Part shown: positions 8,522-51,231 of the stretch, piece after piece
How the letters are laid out: each line of letters starts with the position of its first letter
How positions within the stretch are numbered: position 1 is the stretch's first letter
The notes under the pieces: generated by a model
Told to the model about the DNA's origin: nothing
Databases searched by the model: none
The model's input: only the letters and a program-made list of their open reading frames with translations
Assembly: GCA_029582155.1 (NCBI GenBank)
Contig: CM055903.1
Span: 42,733,769 to 42,797,768 of the forward strand
Direction of reading: 5' to 3'
Length of the DNA: 64,000 nucleotides
DNA from: Panopea generosa
Lineage: Eukaryota > Mollusca > Bivalvia > Adapedonta > Hiatellidae
Made by a program: the position numbers and the translations under genes

Positions 8522-9039
8522 TTGTCTCGTTTTAAATTCTTATATATCTATAAAAATGTAGAATGATACTTTGCCTCCCAGATCAGAAAGGAACTGTGAG
8601 ACAACTTAATATAAAAATGTTCTGCTTGAAACCGACGATACCATTGCAAACAAGAATTATATTTTTGTTGATGATAATGGCATTTTTATGTATATAATGA
8701 AAGCTGTATGGACAATAAATAAGCATATGTTTGTATGGTGTTAAACGACACTTTCATCAATTTTCCAGCTATATTGCGACTGTTTCCACTTAAGACAGTA
8801 TTTTAGGCGCTGGTATATGACTTTCTGAAGATACTCGCTCACACAGACTTACCACCCTGTTATTACATATTGTGTATTGATATATCTGTTAACAAAGCGA
8901 GAGTGGGCCTGTTTGGTTACTATCCATCAAAAACGGTTTAAGCCGATAAGCAGTTTCGATTGGATTATTTGGCTTTCTGTTTTACTTATGCTGTAAGGTG
9001 ACGTCCACGAAAATCCAGGTCAAGCTTCATCTAATACAT

Positions 9040-11895
9040 CCGATATGAGTTCCGGCTCGTCCTCCACTATGCCTAACGGATCATTTGACCTCTCAGAACT
9101 TTTTTTAGCCATCTCTCATTTATTCATTATAATTTCTAAAGCTTTGCCCCAAAGATACACCAAATGTATGCTAATGTATGCTCTTTTGAATGATTGGCTT
9201 TCACGGAAACCTGGTTTAATAACAATACATCTACATCGGATCTTGCCTTTTCTAATTACCAAACACTTTTCCGTAAGGATCGCCTGACTAATAGATATAG
9301 CGGTGGTGTCCTAGTTTATGTTAAGGATACGGTCACTGCTCGCCGAGGGCAAGACTTAGAGGTAAACGTCATTAAATGTATATGCTTAGACATGAAAGTG
9401 AAACATAAACCTATTCTGTATGGCGTTTTCTACCGAATTCCATGGCAGATGTATTTAGGATTCCATAGCCGTAGCTGTCGATACTGAGATTAAAGACATA
9501 GGCACTATGGTTACTTGTGATTATAATCTTGACTGTCTCAAACCTGCATCCCGATTGAAAATTTGTATGCAAATCGGCATTTCCCAACTAATTTCAGAAC
9601 CAACCAATTTCACCGAGTCTTCACAGTCTATTATTGACATTTTTCTTGTGTCCTCCCTCAATCTATTATTCATTTGTGGTGTAGGTAAACCCTTTTTTAA
9701 GCAGAATATTCACTCCCATTGTCCAGTTTTTGTTGTACCAGATACCCTAAACTCAAACACAAACCATTCAAGCTCAAGCTTGATATTTATATGAAGTAAA
9801 TTTTGATCAGTTGCGTACCAATAATCTGTGTTTGACTGGGAATCTTGCTTTGATGCTGCTAAAATGGATCTTTATTCTTCTAGTATCACTGCAGCTTTAC
9901 TTTATTTGTATGATGAGCGCATTCCTAAAATAGCTGTAACAGAACGACCCAACATACAGCAGAGCATGCAAAACAAACAACGCAAATTATTAGAATACAG
10001 ACATTACCATGCAAACCAATAAAATAAGATTACACGTATGCAATGAAAAACACGCACACAACACTAAAGTGGACAACATAATAAAGCTTCATCTATAACA
10101 ACACCACTCGTCTAACTACTGGAAACTTCTTAATAATTTTAATAATCCCAATTCCTCTTAAACAAACATCCCAACACTTTTTCAAAACAACAACACATAC
10201 CAAACAAACACAAAAACAGAAGATATACTCAACACATACATTCATAGATGACACTAATACAGACCTCAAATACTTCCCATTAACGATCACGGCCCTAAAC
10301 TCACCAACATTAACATTTAACCTAAGGAAGTTACTGCCTCCCGAAAAATACTAAATCAGGGAAAGTCACAGGTCCCGATACCATCAATATCATAGTCCTC
10401 AGAGAACTTTCAAACGAACTATCTCTTCTTTTTAATCTGGCTTCGTTCCCAAGGACTGTACTCTCAATCAGCTTACATATATTTTTCATACCTTTTGCAA
10501 GACTCTTTGGGATGGTAAATAAGTTCGAGCTGTCTTTAGGGATATTTCTAAAGCATTCGACCGCGTGTGGCATAAATAACTGTTATCCAAACTTGAACAT
10601 AGTGGTATATTCCTCTCTTCTTCTTTAGTCAATGATTATTTAGCTGGCAGAACACAATGTGAAGTCCTTTCCGGGTCCTCATCCGACACGGTTACAATAT
10701 CGGCTGTCGTTCCTCAAGGCTCAATTCTTGGTACATTATTGTTTCTTGTTTACATCGACTTTATTGTTTCTGAAATTGGCACTACGATTCGCCTCTTTGC
10801 TGACGACACAATCTTCTATGTCATTGTCGATAACCATCAACGTGCTGCTCTCCGTCTCAATTAATGATTGGCTTTTAACCTGACAAGTCACTTTCAATAC
10901 TGCTCAAACTGAATATTTACTAATCCCTCGCAAACACGCCAAACCCCCACTATGCAGTCACGGAAAGTCGACACTGACAAACACATTTGAATGACTCACT
11001 CTGTAGCGATGGCACATGGCACAAACACATTGAAGACATCACCAAAAACGCTTGGACTCGAGTCAACATTCTGCACTCTATCCAATTTACTCTAGATAGT
11101 CAGTCACTCGAAGCCGTCTACATATCTTTCATAAGGCCTACACACAAATACTCTGACGTCGTTGTGGACAATATAACAAAAACTGAAGAAGAAGACCTCG
11201 AAAACTCAAAATGGAAGCAGTTAGAATCATAACGGGAGCAACAAGTCTGGTATCACTCAATAACTTATACAAAGAATCCGCTCTTGAACCCTTGAAGACC
11301 CGCAAACGTCAACACAATTTGGTCCACTTCAACAAAATGGTCATGAGTCCCTTAACCCGTTCCTACTTATCCAATTTGACCCCCGATACAGTAGGTGATG
11401 TTGCAAACTACGGCCCACATACATCTGACCACATTAGGAATGTTTTCTTCAATACCCTACACTTCTCTACATCTCTCCTTCCCTCCGCTATATCAGAATG
11501 GAACAAACTTCCTCCCGCCACCCGGTCTGCTGTTTCCACCTTGTCTTTCAAGCATGCTCTGAATTTTGATTAGAAAACTGTTCCAAATTTTCACTACGAT
11601 GGGAAATAAGATTTGGCAATTCAGCACGCACGGATACGGATGCATCTGTTTTTTCAAAATCATTGCAGAAAACCCTACCTGTGTCTGTGGAGAATTTCCG
11701 GATACTCATCACTATCTTTTCACATGTCGTTGATCTTCGCCAACAAACTCTACTCCATGATGTTCTTCGTCCTATTAATCGTCTAGACCTAAATACACTG
11801 CTGTTCGGCAACGGCACTCCCTCTAATGATGTCAATCGTCAAATATTTCACCATGTCCAAACACTAAGCGTTTCATTAATTGAGTTGAACTAGCT
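9040..11895 (+). mobile_element. Decayed CR1/Jockey-type non-LTR retrotransposon (LINE), nearly full length ORF2
   Basis: Frameshifted pieces occur in the right order. An AP-endonuclease segment (9194-9475) has TETW, then DRLTNRYSGGVLVYVK. The endonuclease C-terminal part (9507-9780) has CDYNLD and SEPTNFTESSQSIIDIF. Reverse transcriptase motifs (10,680-10,860) include VPQGSILG and FADDT (FADD at 10,796-10,807). The thumb/C-terminal segment (11,211-11,573) has VRIITGATSLVSLNNLYKES. A last fragment ends at 11,893. Multiple frameshifts and stops make it inactive. The C-terminal segment is clearly related to the LINE at 38,525-39,856 (VRIITGATSLVSL versus ARIVTGATKLVSL), so both belong to one lineage. 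The individual short ORFs are fragments of this single element, not genes. Confidence 0.85.
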
Positions 11896-11963
11896 ATCCT
11901 TTATTGCCATAAGAGTACCCGCAACACCTCAATATGCAAATTGTGATCACAACTCTCATTTCT

Positions 11964-34132: not shown

Positions 34133-36097
34133 ATGTTGTTCTCTCTTAAATCAAATTAAAGTTGTTTCGCATGTCTCCTTGAGTCTCTTTAACGACACAT
34201 GTGAAGTTTCATTGTTGTATGACAAGTGCAAAGTACAAAGGGGCTGTTGCTTTCCCGATAATCAAAATGAAGTTGTTTCACTTAACCCCTTGAGTCCCAT
34301 TATTAATAGTGAATACAAATGTTGAGTTTCATTGTTGTATGACTAGTACAAAGTACGAGTACAAAGGGGCTGTTACTTTCCCGATAATCAAAATGGAGTT
34401 GTTTCACTTAACACCTTGCGTCCCATTATTAATAGTGAAAACACATGTTGAGTTTCATTGTTGTATGACTAGTACAAAGTACTAGTACAAAGGAGCTGTT
34501 GCTTTCCCGATGATTAAAATGGAGTTGTTTCACTTAACACCTTGCGTCCTATTATTAATAGTGAATACACATGTTGAGTTTCATTGTTGTATGACTAGTA
34601 CAAAGTACTAGTACAAAGGAGCTGTTGCTTTCCCGATGATTAAAATGGAGTTGTTTCACTTAACACCTTGCGTCCTATTATTAATAGTGAATACACATGT
34701 TGAGTTTCATTGTTGTATGACTAGTACAAAGTACGAGTACAAAGGAGCTGTTGCTTTCCCGATGATTAAAATGGAGTTGTTTCACTTAACACCTTGCGTC
34801 CTATTATTAATAGTGAATACACATGTTGAGTTTCATTGTTGTATGACTAGTACAAAGTACGAGTACAAAGGAGCTGTTGCTTTCCCGATGATTAAAATGG
34901 AGTTGTTTCACTTAACACCTTGCGTCCTATTATTAATAGTGAATACACATGTTGAGTTTCATTGTTGTATGACTAGTACAAAGTACGAGTACAAAGGAGC
35001 TGTTGCTTTCCCGATGATTAAAATGGAGTTGTTTCACTTAACACCTTGCGTCCTATTATTAATAGTGAATACACATGTTGAGTTTCATTGTTGTATGACT
35101 AGTACAAAGTACTAGTACAAAGGAGCTGTTGCTTTCCCGATGATTAAAATGGAGTTGTTTCACTTAACCCCTTGCGTCCTATTATTAATAGTGAATACAC
35201 ATGTTGAGTTTCATTGTTGTATGACTAGTACAAAGTACGAGTACAAAGGAGCTGTTGCTTTCCCGATGATTAAAATGGAGTTGTTTCACTTAACACCTTG
35301 CGTCCTATTATTAATAGTGAATACACATGTTGAGTTTCATTGTTGTATGACTAGTACAAAGTACGAGTACAAAGGAGCTGTTGCTTTCCCGATGATTAAA
35401 ATGGAGTTGTTTCACTTAACACCTTGCGTCCTATTATTAATAGTGAATACACATGTTGAGTTTCATTGTTGTATGACTAGTACAAAGTACGAGTACAAAG
35501 GAGCTGTTGCTTTCCCGATGATTAAAATGGAGTTGTTTCACTTAACACCTTGCGTCCTATTATTAATAGTGAATACACATGTTGAGTTTCATTGTTGTAT
35601 GACTAGTACAAAGTACGAGTACAAAGGAGCTGTTGCTTTCCCGATGATTAAAATGGAGTTGTTTCACTTAACACCTTGCGTCCTATTATTAATAGTGAAT
35701 ACACATGTTGAGTTTCATTGTTGTATGACTAGTACAAAGTACTAGTACAAAGGAGCTGTTGCTTTCCCGATGATTAAAATGGAGTTGTTTCACTTAACAC
35801 CTTGCGTCCTATTATTAATAGTGAATACACATGTTGAGTTTCATTGTTGTATGACTAGTACAAAGTACGAGTACAAAGGAGCTGTTGCTTTCCCGATGAT
35901 TAAAATGGAGTTGTTTCACTTAACCCCTTGCGTCCCATTATTAATAGTGAATACACATGTTGAGTTTCATTGTTGTATGACTAGTACAAAGTACTAGTAC
36001 AAAGGAGCTGTTGCTTTCCCGATGATTAAAATGGAGTTGTTTCACTTAACACCTTGCGTCCTATTATTAATAACAAATACACATGTTGAGTTTCGTT
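34133..36097. repeat. Homogeneous 126-bp satellite, 15 units plus partial ends
   Basis: Units start at 34,258 and every 126 bp to 36,022 with exact register, and differ by only a few bases from about 34,510 onward. One more diverged unit precedes them. The unit is 42 codons long, so one frame stays open: MIKMELFHLTPCVLLLIVN and so on. It closes only where tacGAGtac becomes tacTAGtac, near 34,607, 35,113, 35,743 and 35,995. It lies wholly inside a plexin intron and is not regarded as coding. Confidence 0.95.
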
Positions 36098-37660: not shown

Positions 37661-38524
37661 CGAGCAAGAAAAAAAGAAAGCTTCCTGAAAATGATCCAGC
37701 AGTAAATATATGCTCAAAATGATTCAGCAGATATATGATGAAAATGGTTCAGGTGCCAAAACAAATTGTTTTGTTTGATTAAATGATTAAAGAATAAAGC
37801 AATATATATTCTACATTCAGAATAATATTTATTATATAACAAATATTTACGCAATATTTTTACAATATATTTAATATTTCTATTTTATTCTCAACAAATA
37901 TACATTTTATATCATTGTTAAATTCCTGTCAAATAGGTTATATCACTTATTCAAATAAATGATATCACTTAATCGTGTCATTGTTGTATGTGTAGTAGTT
38001 AGTTCTACTGAGAAGGTAATTTGTTATAGAACAAATTTCAAACAAGTATTAAAGTGGAGGTCATAAAACAAGTTTTATGTTGACGAACATACACGTGGAA
38101 TGTTATTGATTTATGGCTAGTAGTTACTGATATGAGCTTCCTAAAAATGAAAAAAAAAACAACACAACTTTATGTATGAATGAAGACATAATTCCCTCTT
38201 AAATCTACATAGAGTTACCCCAATTTTCCCGCAAGTCTAGTTAATGGTAATAAATATACATTGATGCAAAGAAACAACCACAATTTTTAACATAAAAGGG
38301 GGTATAAGTCTGCATAAAATCTAAACAAAGTTATCTCACTTTTCCAGCTAGTGCAGTTAATAGTAGTAAATAAACATTAATGCAAGGCTAGAAGTCACTG
38401 AGAGACGAATATTAACTAAAAGAAACAACCACATTTTCCAACAAATGGGGTCATAATTGTTGTACACTTAAATAGTCTATTCTCTGGTACTTTGGTATTG
38501 AACACACATATGTGAAGTGTAAAA

Positions 38525-40015
38525 AATCGTAATCAATGTGTTGTCGTATCCGGCTGTACATCCGATATGTCTAGTTTGAAAGCCGGGGTACCCCAGGGAT
38601 CTATCCTAGGGCCTCTGTTGTTCCTTGTCTATATAAATGATATTGTAGAAAATATAAGCTCATCCATAAAATTATTTGCTGATGATACTAGTCTTTTTAT
38701 TATAGTAGAATCACCAGATCTGGCCGCTTCTATGTTAAATTCTGATCTCAGAAAAATTCACAACTGGGCTGATAGATGGCTTGTTAATTTTAATCAAAAT
38801 AAAACAGAATCGATGGTTATTACCCGTAAAATCAACAAACCGATACATCCAAATATTTCTATGAATCAAACTGTTATACAAGAAGTTATTACTCATAAAC
38901 ATCTGGGCCTTACTTTTTCAAATAATGGATCATGGCATGAACACATTCAATACATAAAAGAAAAGGCATGGAAAATAATAAACATTATGCGACTTTTAAA
39001 ATTTCAATTAGATAGAAAATCACTTGAGATTATATATACTACTTTTATACGTCCAATTCTAGAATATGCTAACATTGTCTGGGATAATTGCACTTTGTAT
39101 GAAGTTAATGAAATAGAAAAGATTCAGTTGGAAGCAGCAAGAATAGTAACGGGAGCAACAAAACTTGTTTCTTTATCAGCTCTGTACAAAGAGACCTGTT
39201 GGGAATCCTTAAAAACAAGAAGACAAAAACACAAACTTATACTTTATTACAAAATGCATAATGGACTATCTCCTTCGTACCTATGTTCACTCTTACCTGA
39301 AAATGTTGGGAATCTTGTTGGCTATAACATTCGAAATGCACAAGACCTTAGGACGTTTTCATGTAATACTCAATTATATTTTAACTCATTCTTACCGTCT
39401 TCTGTGCGTGAATGGAATTCTCTTCCTCACCTCATAAGAGAGTCGCCTTCCCTTAATATATTCAAATCAAATATCAATGCTAATAAACAAAAGGTTCCAA
39501 ATCATTATTATACAGGAAACCGAACTGCCCAAATATATCATACACGACTTCGTACAAATTGCAGTAACTTGAATCAACATTTATTCAATAAAAACATAGT
39601 TGCAAGTCCAAATTGTCTTTGTGGTGAAATTGAGGACACATATCATTATTTATTCAGGTGCAGACTATTTCACCAATATAGACAAAGAATGATGACTGAA
39701 ATAAAATTAGCTTATCCACATGATCCTTCCTTGAACGATCTTCTGTATGGTAATGAAAATCTTACATTAACTGACAACAACTCGATTTTCATGACAGTTC
39801 AAAATTATATTATAAAGACCAAACGTTTTGAATATCGCACACATTTAAATAGATAATGACTTGTTATGTTTTTTACCTACTTAATTATAACAACAAGCCT
39901 CTATTTGATCTTGGATAGTAAGAAACAATGGCTAATGAATGGATTGGATTGATAAACATAAACTTGGAAAATACCTATCCCCTGTATCGGAATGAACCGA
40001 TAAAGAAAATAAAAT
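38525..40015 (+). mobile_element. 5'-truncated CR1/Jockey-type LINE with intact C-terminal ORF
   Basis: An open frame from about 38,516 to 39,856 (ATG at 38,567; 429 codons) encodes the C-terminal half of a non-LTR reverse transcriptase: GVPQGSILGPLLFLVYINDI, then LFADDTS (FADD at 38,675-38,686), a thumb region with ARIVTGATKLVSL, and a late Cys-rich motif CLCGEIEDTYHYLFRC (39,614-39,662). The part upstream of the fingers/palm, including the endonuclease, is missing, so it cannot retrotranspose by itself. No stop or frameshift interrupts the remainder, so insertion is fairly recent. It is inside a plexin intron, same strand. The 3' UTR ends near 40,010. A target duplication was not identified. 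It is related to the decayed element at 9.0-11.9 kb. Confidence 0.9.
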
Positions 40016-40510: not shown

Positions 40511-40622
40511 ATGCGGCGAATGTACAAACACTACTGGATATGATTGTCAATGGTGTTTACAGAACAACCAGTGTGTGTCTCCAGGACAATGTAGCCAGAG
40601 TGCCGGTCTTAGTATTACACAG
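40511..40622 (+). CDS. Plexin exon 8: second PSI domain
   Basis: Acceptor tgatacag, donor acag|gtaata; first base completes a Lys codon, ends phase 0. Encodes CGECTNTTGYDCQWCLQNNQ then CVSPGQC, the CxxC...CxWC...C spacing of a plexin PSI domain. Confidence 0.88.
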
Positions 40623-40679: not shown

Positions 40680-40890
40680 GATATAATATAACTGGTGTTT
40701 ACAGGACACACAGTATGTGTCACCTGGACAATGTAGCCATAGTGCAGGTATTAGAATTACGCAGGTAATAATGTAACTTGTGTTACCTTAATTGGTAATA
40801 TTATATAAGATATAATGTAACTACTGTTAACAGAACACACAGTGTGTGTCTTCTAGACTATAAAGTTAAGGCACATGTTATAATTATTGT
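40680..40890 (+). pseudogene. Decayed tandem copies of the 3' part of plexin exon 8
   Basis: From about 40,692 the sequence tggtgtttacaggacacaca, then gtcacctggacaatgtagcc and ttacgcaggtaataatgtaa, copies exon 8 from its WCLQNNQ codons through its donor and 15 bp of intron. A third, more degraded trace (gaacacacagtgtgtgtctt) follows at about 40,832. Neither has an acceptor in register, so these are not alternative exons as they stand. Confidence 0.8.
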
Positions 40891-42231: not shown

Positions 42232-42333
42232 GATGCTTCAGACTTCTTCCTAACAATGCCAGCAATTCCATCATTGCCACTGGTAAAGGCATCAGACACA
42301 GCGACACAGACATCTGTCACTTTCTCGATACAG
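42232..42333 (+). CDS. Plexin exon 10: second TIG-like spacer, middle
   Basis: Acceptor ttttatacag, donor ataca g|gtaaca; 34 codons, phase 0 both ends. Encodes DASDFFLTMPAIPSLPLV and TQTSVTFSIQ. Lacks cysteines; placement rests on phase, splice sites and position between PSI2 and PSI3. Confidence 0.78.
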
Positions 42334-42624
42334 GTAACAGATTGTGCATTGTCAATGTGTTATCTCATCTGAACCAAGCTCTACTTACATATTACAACCG
42401 TCGGAAGATATAATTTGCTAGCATGTGTCAATCTATCAGTCTCTGGGAACATTGACGCTTGCTGGTTCGGAAAACTAAAAAAAAAATAAACCGGAAATTC
42501 CCTTTAACTTGTTGTTTACATATTTGTTAACATCTAATTGGCTTAATAAGCCAAAATATTTCTTTTTGTCCACTTAACAATGCCAGACCATACACAAATA
42601 CATAAAAACGGTGCTGATGATATG

Positions 42625-42840
42625 ATGGGACGGTCAAAACAAAATAAGGAATTAACCAGAAGAAAGCGGGGTGGTAATGTAATGGATAAAGTATTGGCCG
42701 CTCACGCCAGAGGGTGCGAGTTCAATCCCCCGATCGACCCGATGCCTCTCATAAAACAACACTCAGTACTGGTTCTACTCAGGAAGTGGACTCGAGAGCG
42801 GTTCAAAAGCTAAAAAATATTAATATAAACTAAACTAAAA
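42625..42840 (+). repeat. tRNA-derived SINE
   Basis: A tRNA-like head (ggataaagtattggccgctc; B box GAGTTCAATCCCC) is followed by actggttctactcaggaagt and gactcgagagcggttc. The tail matches the family at 30,950 and 48,500. Confidence 0.8.
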
Positions 42841-43624
42841 CAAAACAACAAGAACCTAGATGAATTGGTATTGCTTTGATGAAATAATTACCATATTTGA
42901 CACATTCCATATATATGTTATGGATACCTTTAATACAAATTATATTTATATTTAATTTACTGCTGTTCATTTAATGAGTACAATTTTCTTCGACGAGCGA
43001 TAGTATCCAACGTCTGGTATGAATATAATATTTTGGAAGTTTACACTGGACATAAGATATTCTCTCGGATGAAACACGACCGCTACTTTTCTCATTATAT
43101 TTTGGAAGAGCAGAAGTTGTCTAACAATAAAGTGTTAGTTTCATTTCTCTAATATGGTCTTTCTGTGAATGACAAGCATGCAGACTTGTTTATTTACTTT
43201 AGAATACAGAACAAAAAAACGTTGTCATAATGGTTATAAGTATATTGTCCAAGTTGAATACCCACAAGTCTATAGATCTAAATTGGTGAAATTTATAAAA
43301 GCTGATTTTGCTAAAATGGGAACATGGTTACACAATGGCGGTTGGCATTTTTTGTTTGTTATCTGTATTCCAAAAGTGACAATGATACTAACAATAGTGA
43401 AACAAGTCTTTGTCAGGACTTAATATTCTACAGTTGCTGTTATAACTACTACTGGACAAAAGTAATGAGATGATACTCGCATTGAAATATAGATCAAATC
43501 TCACTGCTAAAATCGATACAGCTACAATATATTGCTTTTATATTATTTTATTTTATGTTCAAATAAGGGTAGGAGAACCACATTTGTTCCTACTTGTTAA
43601 ACTGAAATAGTATGTGTATACGCA

Positions 43625-45286
43625 GTTAACCTGTAATATATTTATATAATGATTACTTTCCATATCACTACAATTAAACTGTAACATACTTATATAGTAA
43701 TTACTGTTCCAGATCACTAAAATTAACCTGTAACATACTTATATGATAATTACTGTTCCAGATAACTCTACAACTAAACTGTTACATACTTAAACAATAA
43801 TTACTGTTCCAGATAACTCTACAATTAACCTGTAACATACTTATACAATAATAACTGTTCCAGATCACTACAATTAACCTGTTACATACTTAAACAATAA
43901 TAATTGTTCCAGATCACTACAATTAACTGTAACATACTTAAACAATAATTTCTGTTCAAGATCACTAAAATTAACCTGTAACATATTTATACAATAATAA
44001 CTGTTTAATATCACTACAATTAACCTGTAGCATACTTATACAATAATTACTGTTCCAGATCACTACAGTTAACCTGTAACTTACTAATATAATAATTACT
44101 GTTCTAGATCACTATTAACCTGCAACATACTTATAACTTATACAATAATTACTGTTCCAGATCACTACAATTAACCTGTCGCATACTAATATAATAATTA
44201 CTATTCCAGATCACTACAATTAACCTGTAATGTACTTATACAATAATTAATGTTCCAGATCACTAAAATTGACCTGTAACATACTTATACAAAAATTACT
44301 GTTCCAGACCACTACAATTAACCTGTAGCATTCTTATACAATAATCACTGTTTCAGATCACTAAAATTAACCTGCAGCATACTCATATAATAATTGCTGT
44401 TCCAGATCACTACAATTAACCTGTAGCATACTTATATAATAATTACTGTTTCAAATCACTAAAATTCACCTGTAACATACTTATATAATAAGTACTGCTC
44501 TAAATCACTACAATTGACCTGTAAAGCACTTATATAATAATTACTGATCCTGATCACTACAATTAACCTGTTGCATACTTATATAATAATGATTGTTCCA
44601 GATCACTACAATTAACCTGTAGCATACTCATATAATAATTACTGTTCCAGATCACTACAATTAACCTGTAATTTACGAATATAATAATTGATGTTCCAGA
44701 TCACTACAATTAACCTGTAGCATACTTATACAATTATTATTATTCCAGATCACTACAATTAACCTGTAGCATACTTATATAATAATTACTGTTCCAGATC
44801 ACTACAATTTACCTGTAGCATACTAATATAATAATTACTGTTCCAGATCACTACAAATAACCTGTAATTTACGAATATAATAATTGCTGTTCCAGATCAC
44901 TACAATTAACCTGTAGCATACTCATATAATAATTACTGTTCCAGATCACTACAATTGACCTGTAATGCACTTATATAATAATTACTGTTCCTGATCACAA
45001 AAATTAACCTGTAGCATACTTATATAATAATTACGGTTCCAGATCACTACAATTAACCTGTAGCATATTTATATAACAATTACTGTTTCAAATCACTAAA
45101 ATTCACCTGTAACATTATTATATAATAATTACTGTTCTAGATCACTACAATTAACCTGTAGCATACTTATTTAATAATTACTGTCCCAGATCGCTACAAT
45201 TAACCTGTATTATACCAATATAATAATTACTGTTCCAGATCACTACAATTAATCTGTAATGTTCTTCTATAATATTATTGTTCCAG
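43625..45286 (+). repeat. About 49-bp satellite, roughly 34 units, abutting and copying the exon 11 acceptor
   Basis: The unit is atacttatataataattact followed by gttccagatcactacaatta and acctgtagc. It fills the end of intron 10 and runs without a break into the true acceptor: the last unit reads attattgttccag and then exon 11 begins atcactacaaat. Each unit therefore carries a copy of the splice-acceptor region and the first 10-11 exon bases. In nearly every unit an exon started at that acceptor would meet TAG or TAA after six codons (ATC ACT ACA ATT AAC CTG stop). Confidence 0.95.
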
Positions 45287-45395
45287 ATCACTACAAATGA
45301 AAGATTGAAGAACTACCCTGTAATAATTAAATATGGGTTTAAAGGACAAGGTGAAGATTCAAGTGTAGTGCTGGATGATGACTACAACAATAACG
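45287..45395 (+). CDS. Plexin exon 11: end of second TIG-like spacer
   Basis: Acceptor attgttccag, donor aacg|gtatag; phase 0 start, phase 1 end. Encodes ITTNERLKNYPVIIKYGFKG and VVLDDDYNNNG. Joins PSI3 with a split Val codon. The first bases are shared with the satellite units just upstream. Confidence 0.82.
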
Positions 45396-45849
45396 GTATA
45401 GTACTTCTACATGCCTTATAATGCACAGCATACATATGTATTGCGTAAAAGTCATGTTCTCGTACCAAACAGACGAGAGGTTGTGTCACATCCAAGAACA
45501 GCATGACATTGTATGAACAATATATGTTTGCATACTTTTTTCCCTAATTTAATCTTTGTGAGGTGTGTGCTTTAATCCTTAAAATTGAATTTCATTTTCA
45601 TCTTGGTTCAGGTTTAAAAAAATATTCTACGAGTCCATGTTGACGTAATAAATTAAGAACAATATCCGTATCATTAACGTTAATGACCATTGACTGAATT
45701 AATGCATGTTTCCACAGATGTATTCACTATTAAGACAGCTGTATCTCTTACTGCTTGTCGTGATTTAATATCACTTGCATCTAATGCACCCGTTAGCATG
45801 TTTATAAAGTCGTACTTAATTTTTTTGTAAGCAAAGAACGTATCTTTTT

Positions 45850-50550: not shown

Positions 50551-50717
50551 TTACCGTGTACACGTGTAGTAAGATGGCAAGTGACTGTAGTCGATGTAAT
50601 GCATTAAACAAGACCAGGTACAACTGTAAATGGTGTGACGGGGCTCCAGCTGTATGTAACCATTACGAGTCAGAATGTACACTTACTACCACATGCCCAG
50701 CTCCAGTTGTTACTAAG
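50551..50717 (+). CDS. Plexin exon 12: third PSI domain
   Basis: Acceptor tgataacag, donor aag|gtttgt; first two bases complete a Val codon, ends phase 0. Encodes VTVYTCSKMASDCSRCNAL then YNCKWCDGAPAVC and CTLTTTCP. This is the clearest plexin signature in the window: VxxYxCsxxxxDCSxC...yxCxWC matches plexin PSI3. It leads directly to the IPT repeats. Confidence 0.93.
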
Positions 50718-51231
50718 GTTTGTGGGATTTTTTACGTCACTGACCGGAAGAAGCGTGGCTATAGGTAATGCATTATGTGATATAAAATAATTCATAGTAG
50801 CATAGGCTATGGATCTGAGTGTGTTCATCCGTCACCATCTTAGATATCGTTGTATGGTTGATTTGTGGAATCAGGTGAGACTTAAAAAACATTTTGGCAT
50901 AAAGTATATATGCTCATAATAATTACTACGGCGTCTCTGTTGTTTGTAGTTTTTAAGAAAAATATGTAACATATACATAAGTCCACCGGACGTGACGTCT
51001 TAAAATATAATGACACCTATTTTATGTCATTGCATATAGCTCTCCGAGATGTGCGTTAACAAATCTATAACACGTTTTAATATTTCATGTACAGACCTTT
51101 TATACGGTTATACACGTGTTACTTTTTCCGACACTGATATGTTATATTTCAAATCATGTTCCAAAATAAGCGATGATAATTATATTTGCATGTTTTTTTT
51201 CCTTTTTCGGAAACTACCGTTTTTATTACAG

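Follow-up and report, generated by a model that had tools for sequence, protein, structure and literature searches.

The closest described counterparts of the array reported here are the 'mirage' minisatellites of amphioxus, known at BflGb6, BflGb9 and Adh3 and also at TnC and PGBD5 (PMC3087553, PMC3902484). As characterised in those papers, mirages are tandem duplications of an intron-exon boundary, located at the 5′ or 3′ ends of exons, in which the AG or GT is kept in many but not all units, the length is unstable, and the unit at the edge of the cluster is excluded from homogenisation (PMC3087553, PMC3902484). An earlier note on the DNA considered here knew of no described example of such an arrangement, a statement that the amphioxus cases overturn (PMC3087553, PMC3902484). 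Human segmental duplications provide a second point of reference, since internal tandem repeats and minisatellites are described there in recent paralogs, some of them at exon-intron boundaries (PMC2812944). The literature found under the name 'mirage' concerns amphioxus only, and work published under other names would escape such a search. The minisatellite of IFI6-16 (G1P3), the subject of a 1995 article in Nucleic Acids Res, reportedly provides multiple splice donor sites from a 12-nt unit, with several of the donors used. Its likeness to the present case is that of minisatellite units carrying splice sites; the difference is that those donors are said to be in use, whereas the sites described below are acceptor-like and known from sequence alone.

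The window analysed is a stretch of 64,000 nucleotides from the bivalve Panopea generosa (assembly GCA_029582155.1, contig CM055903.1, positions 42,733,769 to 42,797,768 of the forward strand). Its plus strand is predicted to encode a divergent plexin-like gene, of which 15 of the 16 listed exons were placed in the window. The exon that adjoins the array, hereafter the array exon ('exon 11' in the numbering of the earlier note), lies at 45287-45395 on the plus strand (ITTNERLKNYPVIIKYGFKGQGEDSSVVLDDDYNNN), starts in phase 0 and ends in phase 1 with one leftover base (AACG|GTATAG). The exon before it (42232-42333, plus strand) ends ATACAG|GTAACA in phase 0, and the array sits in the intervening intron, 42334-45286. 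The next exon (50551-50720, plus strand, 3′ limit approximate) begins TT following AACAG, which completes the split codon, so that the flanking phases agree. This exon contains a PSI_Plexin-B match (PF24317; E 1.2e-05) that, at 25.5 bits, misses the curated cut-off of 27; the two TIG domains downstream of it are both above the Pfam cut-off. The Pfam Sema match in the first exon falls short of significance (E 0.092), and the gene is therefore assigned to the plexins by its PSI and TIG domains and by a protein match of the first Sema exon to a Mercenaria plexin-B-like protein (40% over 81% of the query). A protein search with the PSI2-IPT2-PSI3 region returned mostly bacterial TIG proteins, the useful relatives being fish plexin-B1; this query was approximate, one exon (from about residue 882 on) having begun with a few residues unlike the window reading, and when it was extended by 200 X there was no match at E ≤10. 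Elsewhere in the window, a fragment at 20545-20864 matches a portion of the first plexin Sema exon at 74% identity.

Running directly into the array exon is an acceptor-type junction minisatellite of units of about 49 bp (43626-45296, plus strand), delimited by TRF, wrap-around alignment and 17-mer counts. TRF reports 34.0 copies at period 49, and the wrap-around alignment, with its end fixed at 45296, resolves 34 units that are 42-48/49 identical to the consensus, bearing out the count of about 34 given in the earlier note. The unit, TTAACCTGTAACATACTTATATAATAATTACTGTTCCAG|ATCACTACAA, joins 39 nt from the end of the intron, with the AG among them, to the 10 nt with which the exon starts; the opening unit begins TTAACCTG and the final unit finishes ATCACTACAA at 45296. 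The 17-mer GTTCCAGATCACTACAA, said to be contained in each unit, is certainly recurrent, with 32 occurrences at up to three mismatches (highest value in shuffles, 1), but the wording was too strong because 14 occurrences are exact (0 in 100 shuffles). The terminal unit (45249-45296, plus strand, from the alignment) holds the true 3′ splice site, with its AG at 45285-45286, and exon bases 1-10. It is an outlier in the window array, with a mean distance of 10.1 to the interior units against 7.5 among the others. Among the four arrays for which this was computed, the unit at the 3′ edge stands apart in the window, L012 and L019 but not in L011 (5.4 versus 6.9).

We searched the assembly to which the window belongs (1.474 Gb, 39 contigs) for the repeat and scored the best candidates. 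Among these, all 43 DNA matches fall within C10:42.31-43.57 Mb, at 13 plexin-like loci including the window, and none lies at an unrelated locus, a distribution unlike that of dispersed satellite DNA. Copies of the repeat far from any exon, named in the earlier note as evidence against its proposal, were looked for and not seen among the same scored candidates. The 13 plexin-like gene copies are clustered in this interval in both orientations, and at every one of them the array abuts the array exon. By TRF the arrays comprise 8.9-34.6 copies; in alignments ending at exon base 10, with partial first units counted, they comprise 9-37 units. The TRF array ends at exactly exon +10 in 11 of the 13 loci. 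In L015, which has a substitution in the exon, it stops 3 bases before that point; L020 has a disrupted penultimate unit, and there the shortfall is 43 bases, with the last unit 1 base from the window's. The L020 array also contains an internal duplication spanning several units. L010 has an exon identical to that of the window and matches the following 500 bases at 99.2%, yet it has 10 units rather than 34; its units are nearest to the first one or two units of the window array and to its 3′ part, and thus L010 has probably lost the middle of the array. In L013 the array exon is frameshifted by a one-base insertion.

Judged by its structure, the plexin array would be classed as a mirage. In the features that the amphioxus papers set out, it is similar in that its units span the intron-exon boundary and adjoin the genuine one (13/13 loci), in that the splice dinucleotide is kept in many but not all units (the AG is intact in 26 of the 33 decoys in the window), and in that copy number varies, here among paralogs. 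It differs in unit size (49 bp, compared with 10-72 bp at Adh3 and 150-160 bp at BflGb6), in unit number (34 in the window, compared with 6 and 3 in BflGb6 haplotypes) and in its host, a mollusc; it is also found in 13 paralogs, together with a single-unit relative and a substitution common to exon and array. The repeats in human segmental duplications are described as altering exons or forming new introns (PMC2812944), whereas the array exon begins at the same codon in all 13 cluster copies. The explanation that we hold with high confidence is that this is a mirage-type minisatellite which arose by duplication of the junction and whose decoy acceptors are tolerated.

The decoys could instead serve a function, with competing acceptors lowering or regulating inclusion of the exon and the stop-bearing transcripts being cleared by nonsense-mediated decay. 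Retention of the AG in 26 of the 33 window decoys would suit such a role, as would the presence of an array in every cluster copy; over the 13 arrays (three of them near-identical), 233 of 296 complete interior units have the AG. Each of the 26 AG-bearing decoys in the window also meets a stop before the real exon; the earlier note had placed that stop after six codons, and a stop at the seventh codon is found in only 18 of them. We nevertheless consider a function unlikely, as array length varies from 9 to 37 units and eight of the 21 exon copies do not have the array. Among 49 adjacent pairs, the AG pair of the window array comes 33rd in conservation and is kept no better than the bases around it; in six other arrays its rank is 17th, 20th, 28th, 36th, 39th and 39th. 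By a crude splice-site score, the true site beats 25 of the 26 decoys; the idea that the decoys are as strong as the true site was dropped, a single decoy being at or above its score. A claim of constraint on the exonic part of the unit was likewise dropped because the rank differs so widely among arrays: among the 49 phases, conservation of the 10 exonic columns is 1st in the window, 2nd in L019 and 3rd in L010, but 17th in L020, 26th in L012, 39th in L011 and 47th in L015. Nothing in these data appears to point to decoys kept for a purpose, and toleration seems to be the reading that fits best.

The array exon has matches at 21 places in the genome. Thirteen of them belong to the cluster, C10:64.76 Mb provides one more, and the remaining seven are on C13, C16 and C23. 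The 49-bp array is absent from all eight copies outside the cluster, in each of which at least 800 bp of upstream sequence was covered. The copy at C10:64.76 is the nearest array-less relative, and at its corresponding junction a single unit-like stretch precedes ATCACTTCAA. The intronic core of this stretch is identical to the unit at 21 of 25 positions (score 34), a score reached by none of 1130 overlapping intron control windows (maximum 26) and by 10 of 5000 Markov sequences built from the C10:64.76 stretch itself. Such a single unit is consistent with a progenitor of the array. Alternatively it may be what is left of a contracted array, for the tree, built on 204 nt per copy, does not fix the order of C10:64.76 and the L011 group (support 0.645). 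Because all 13 arrays abut the exon and the nearest array-less relative has one unit-like stretch at that very place, the junction itself is the most likely source of the array, and the amplification from the intron-exon junction proposed in the earlier note is supported.

We regard as very unlikely the opposite order of events, in which an intronic array came first and the start of the exon was taken from it, either as an exonised last unit or through a shifted acceptor. The seven remote copies on C13, C16 and C23 lend this some credence: their exons begin GTG and are two codons longer, counted by eye, and their first codons (VIDGL, VIDVL or VTDVL, compared with ITT) differ close to the edge of the repeat. 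For this reason the remote copies appear to leave the deep ancestry of the exon's first 10 nt ambiguous; inspection by eye recognised no unit-like stretch in any of the seven. On the other hand, the array-less copy at C10:64.76 already has the same exon start next to its one unit-like stretch, unless it is a contracted array, and fish plexin-B1 has ITC or ISC here in those five aligned proteins in which the segment is retained, which argues weakly in the same direction. An assembly artefact, or a repeat wrongly collapsed or expanded, is scarcely credible, for although tandem arrays are hard to assemble and the L013 exon has its 1-bp insertion, the arrays lie at 13 separate loci, their units have diverged, and L009, L014 and L020 largely keep the unit order of the window.

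Returning to an array that grew from the junction, the edge of the exon provides evidence that the two have since changed together. In L011, L016 and L017 both exons are identical and the arrays nearly so, and the array exon begins GTC, an A-to-G change at exon +1 that is coding (Ile to Val). The same G occupies the exon +1 column in 17 of 30 complete interior units of these arrays, with 14 of the 17 in the half nearer the exon. The ten remaining arrays precede an exon that begins ATC, and none of their 206 complete interior units has G at that column. A Fisher test on these counts was set aside because the units are not independent. The G common to exon and array implies that, once the array existed, the exon edge either exchanged sequence with it or supplied sequence to it. 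Homogenisation of exon and array is not invariable: at base 7 the L019 exon has T, in common with the C10:64.76 copy, and this T is in no complete interior unit of L019. The ten-base exon start of L015, ATCACTATAA, is in none of that array's seven complete interior units.

These observations can be accommodated in a simple scheme. A 49-bp segment across the junction, comprising 39 nt of intron end with its AG and 10 nt of exon, would have been tandemly duplicated, and the array would then have expanded and contracted, presumably by unequal exchange or slippage, while being carried along as the plexin-like gene multiplied into its 13-copy cluster. Since only the last unit abuts the body of the exon, the authentic acceptor would survive at the 3′ edge of the array. 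The upstream decoys would be tolerated, and the likely reason is that exon definition gives preference to the acceptor that lies beside the exon body and its donor; use of a decoy would yield a premature stop, and the presence of the decoys may be nearly neutral. The first 10 bases of the exon would stay within the array and share some of its changes.

Duplicated junctions are found elsewhere in and near the window. Two of the 15 placed plexin-like exons, the array exon and the PSI2 exon, have copies of their own boundary close by on the plus strand. The PSI2 exon (40512-40622, plus strand, 5′ limit approximate) has its 3′ boundary duplicated in the next intron, where a copy of the exon's 3′ end and donor lies at 40693-40785 on the same strand (88% over 93 nt). 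In the nine cluster copies where this exon is seen, seven, including the window, have one extra copy of the boundary at E 1e-4, while L019 has five and L020 six plus one partial copy; a paralog on C13 has a 97-bp array of 12.1 copies at the same boundary (L023:1147-2323). The PSI2 exon gave no match in the fetched stretches of L011, L013, L016 and L017, where it is probably outside the fetched DNA, and the searched stretches of C16 and C23 gave none either. The minus strand carries a donor-type junction repeat of 113-bp units, which occupies 3-719 (TRF) and runs from the donor end of a genuine EGF-like exon at 642-774 (3′ end computed, 5′ limit approximate). Most of its units contain the 3′ end of the EGF-like exon, a donor-like GGTAAGC or variant, and the start of the intron, and its TRF rows continue past the edge of the window, reaching a total of about 1.7 kb (L021). 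The window thus has two arrays at junctions and one junction that is duplicated a single time. Other repeated or putatively mobile sequence is present in the window: a 126-bp array of 15.1 copies at 34195-36094 (97% matches), with several open frames inside, adjoins no placed exon, and a 446-aa open frame at 38516-39856 looks by eye like the reverse transcriptase of a non-LTR element, with broken pieces similar to it near 9000-11900.

In conclusion, the plexin-like genes of this mollusc suggest that the mirage-type phenomenon occurs in animals other than amphioxus. More tentatively, junction minisatellites might be a common route of edge evolution in this genome, whereby intronic repeats rewrite coding bases, as in the change from Ile to Val at base 1 and possibly from Ser to Thr at codon 3; an intronic repeat could do so because the exon edge stays part of the array. 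The 13 paralogs with 9-37 units, the one single-unit copy and the seven remote array-less copies would constitute a natural dose series for the choice made by the spliceosome among repeated acceptors, and they offer a case of coding bases caught up in the evolution of an intronic repeat.
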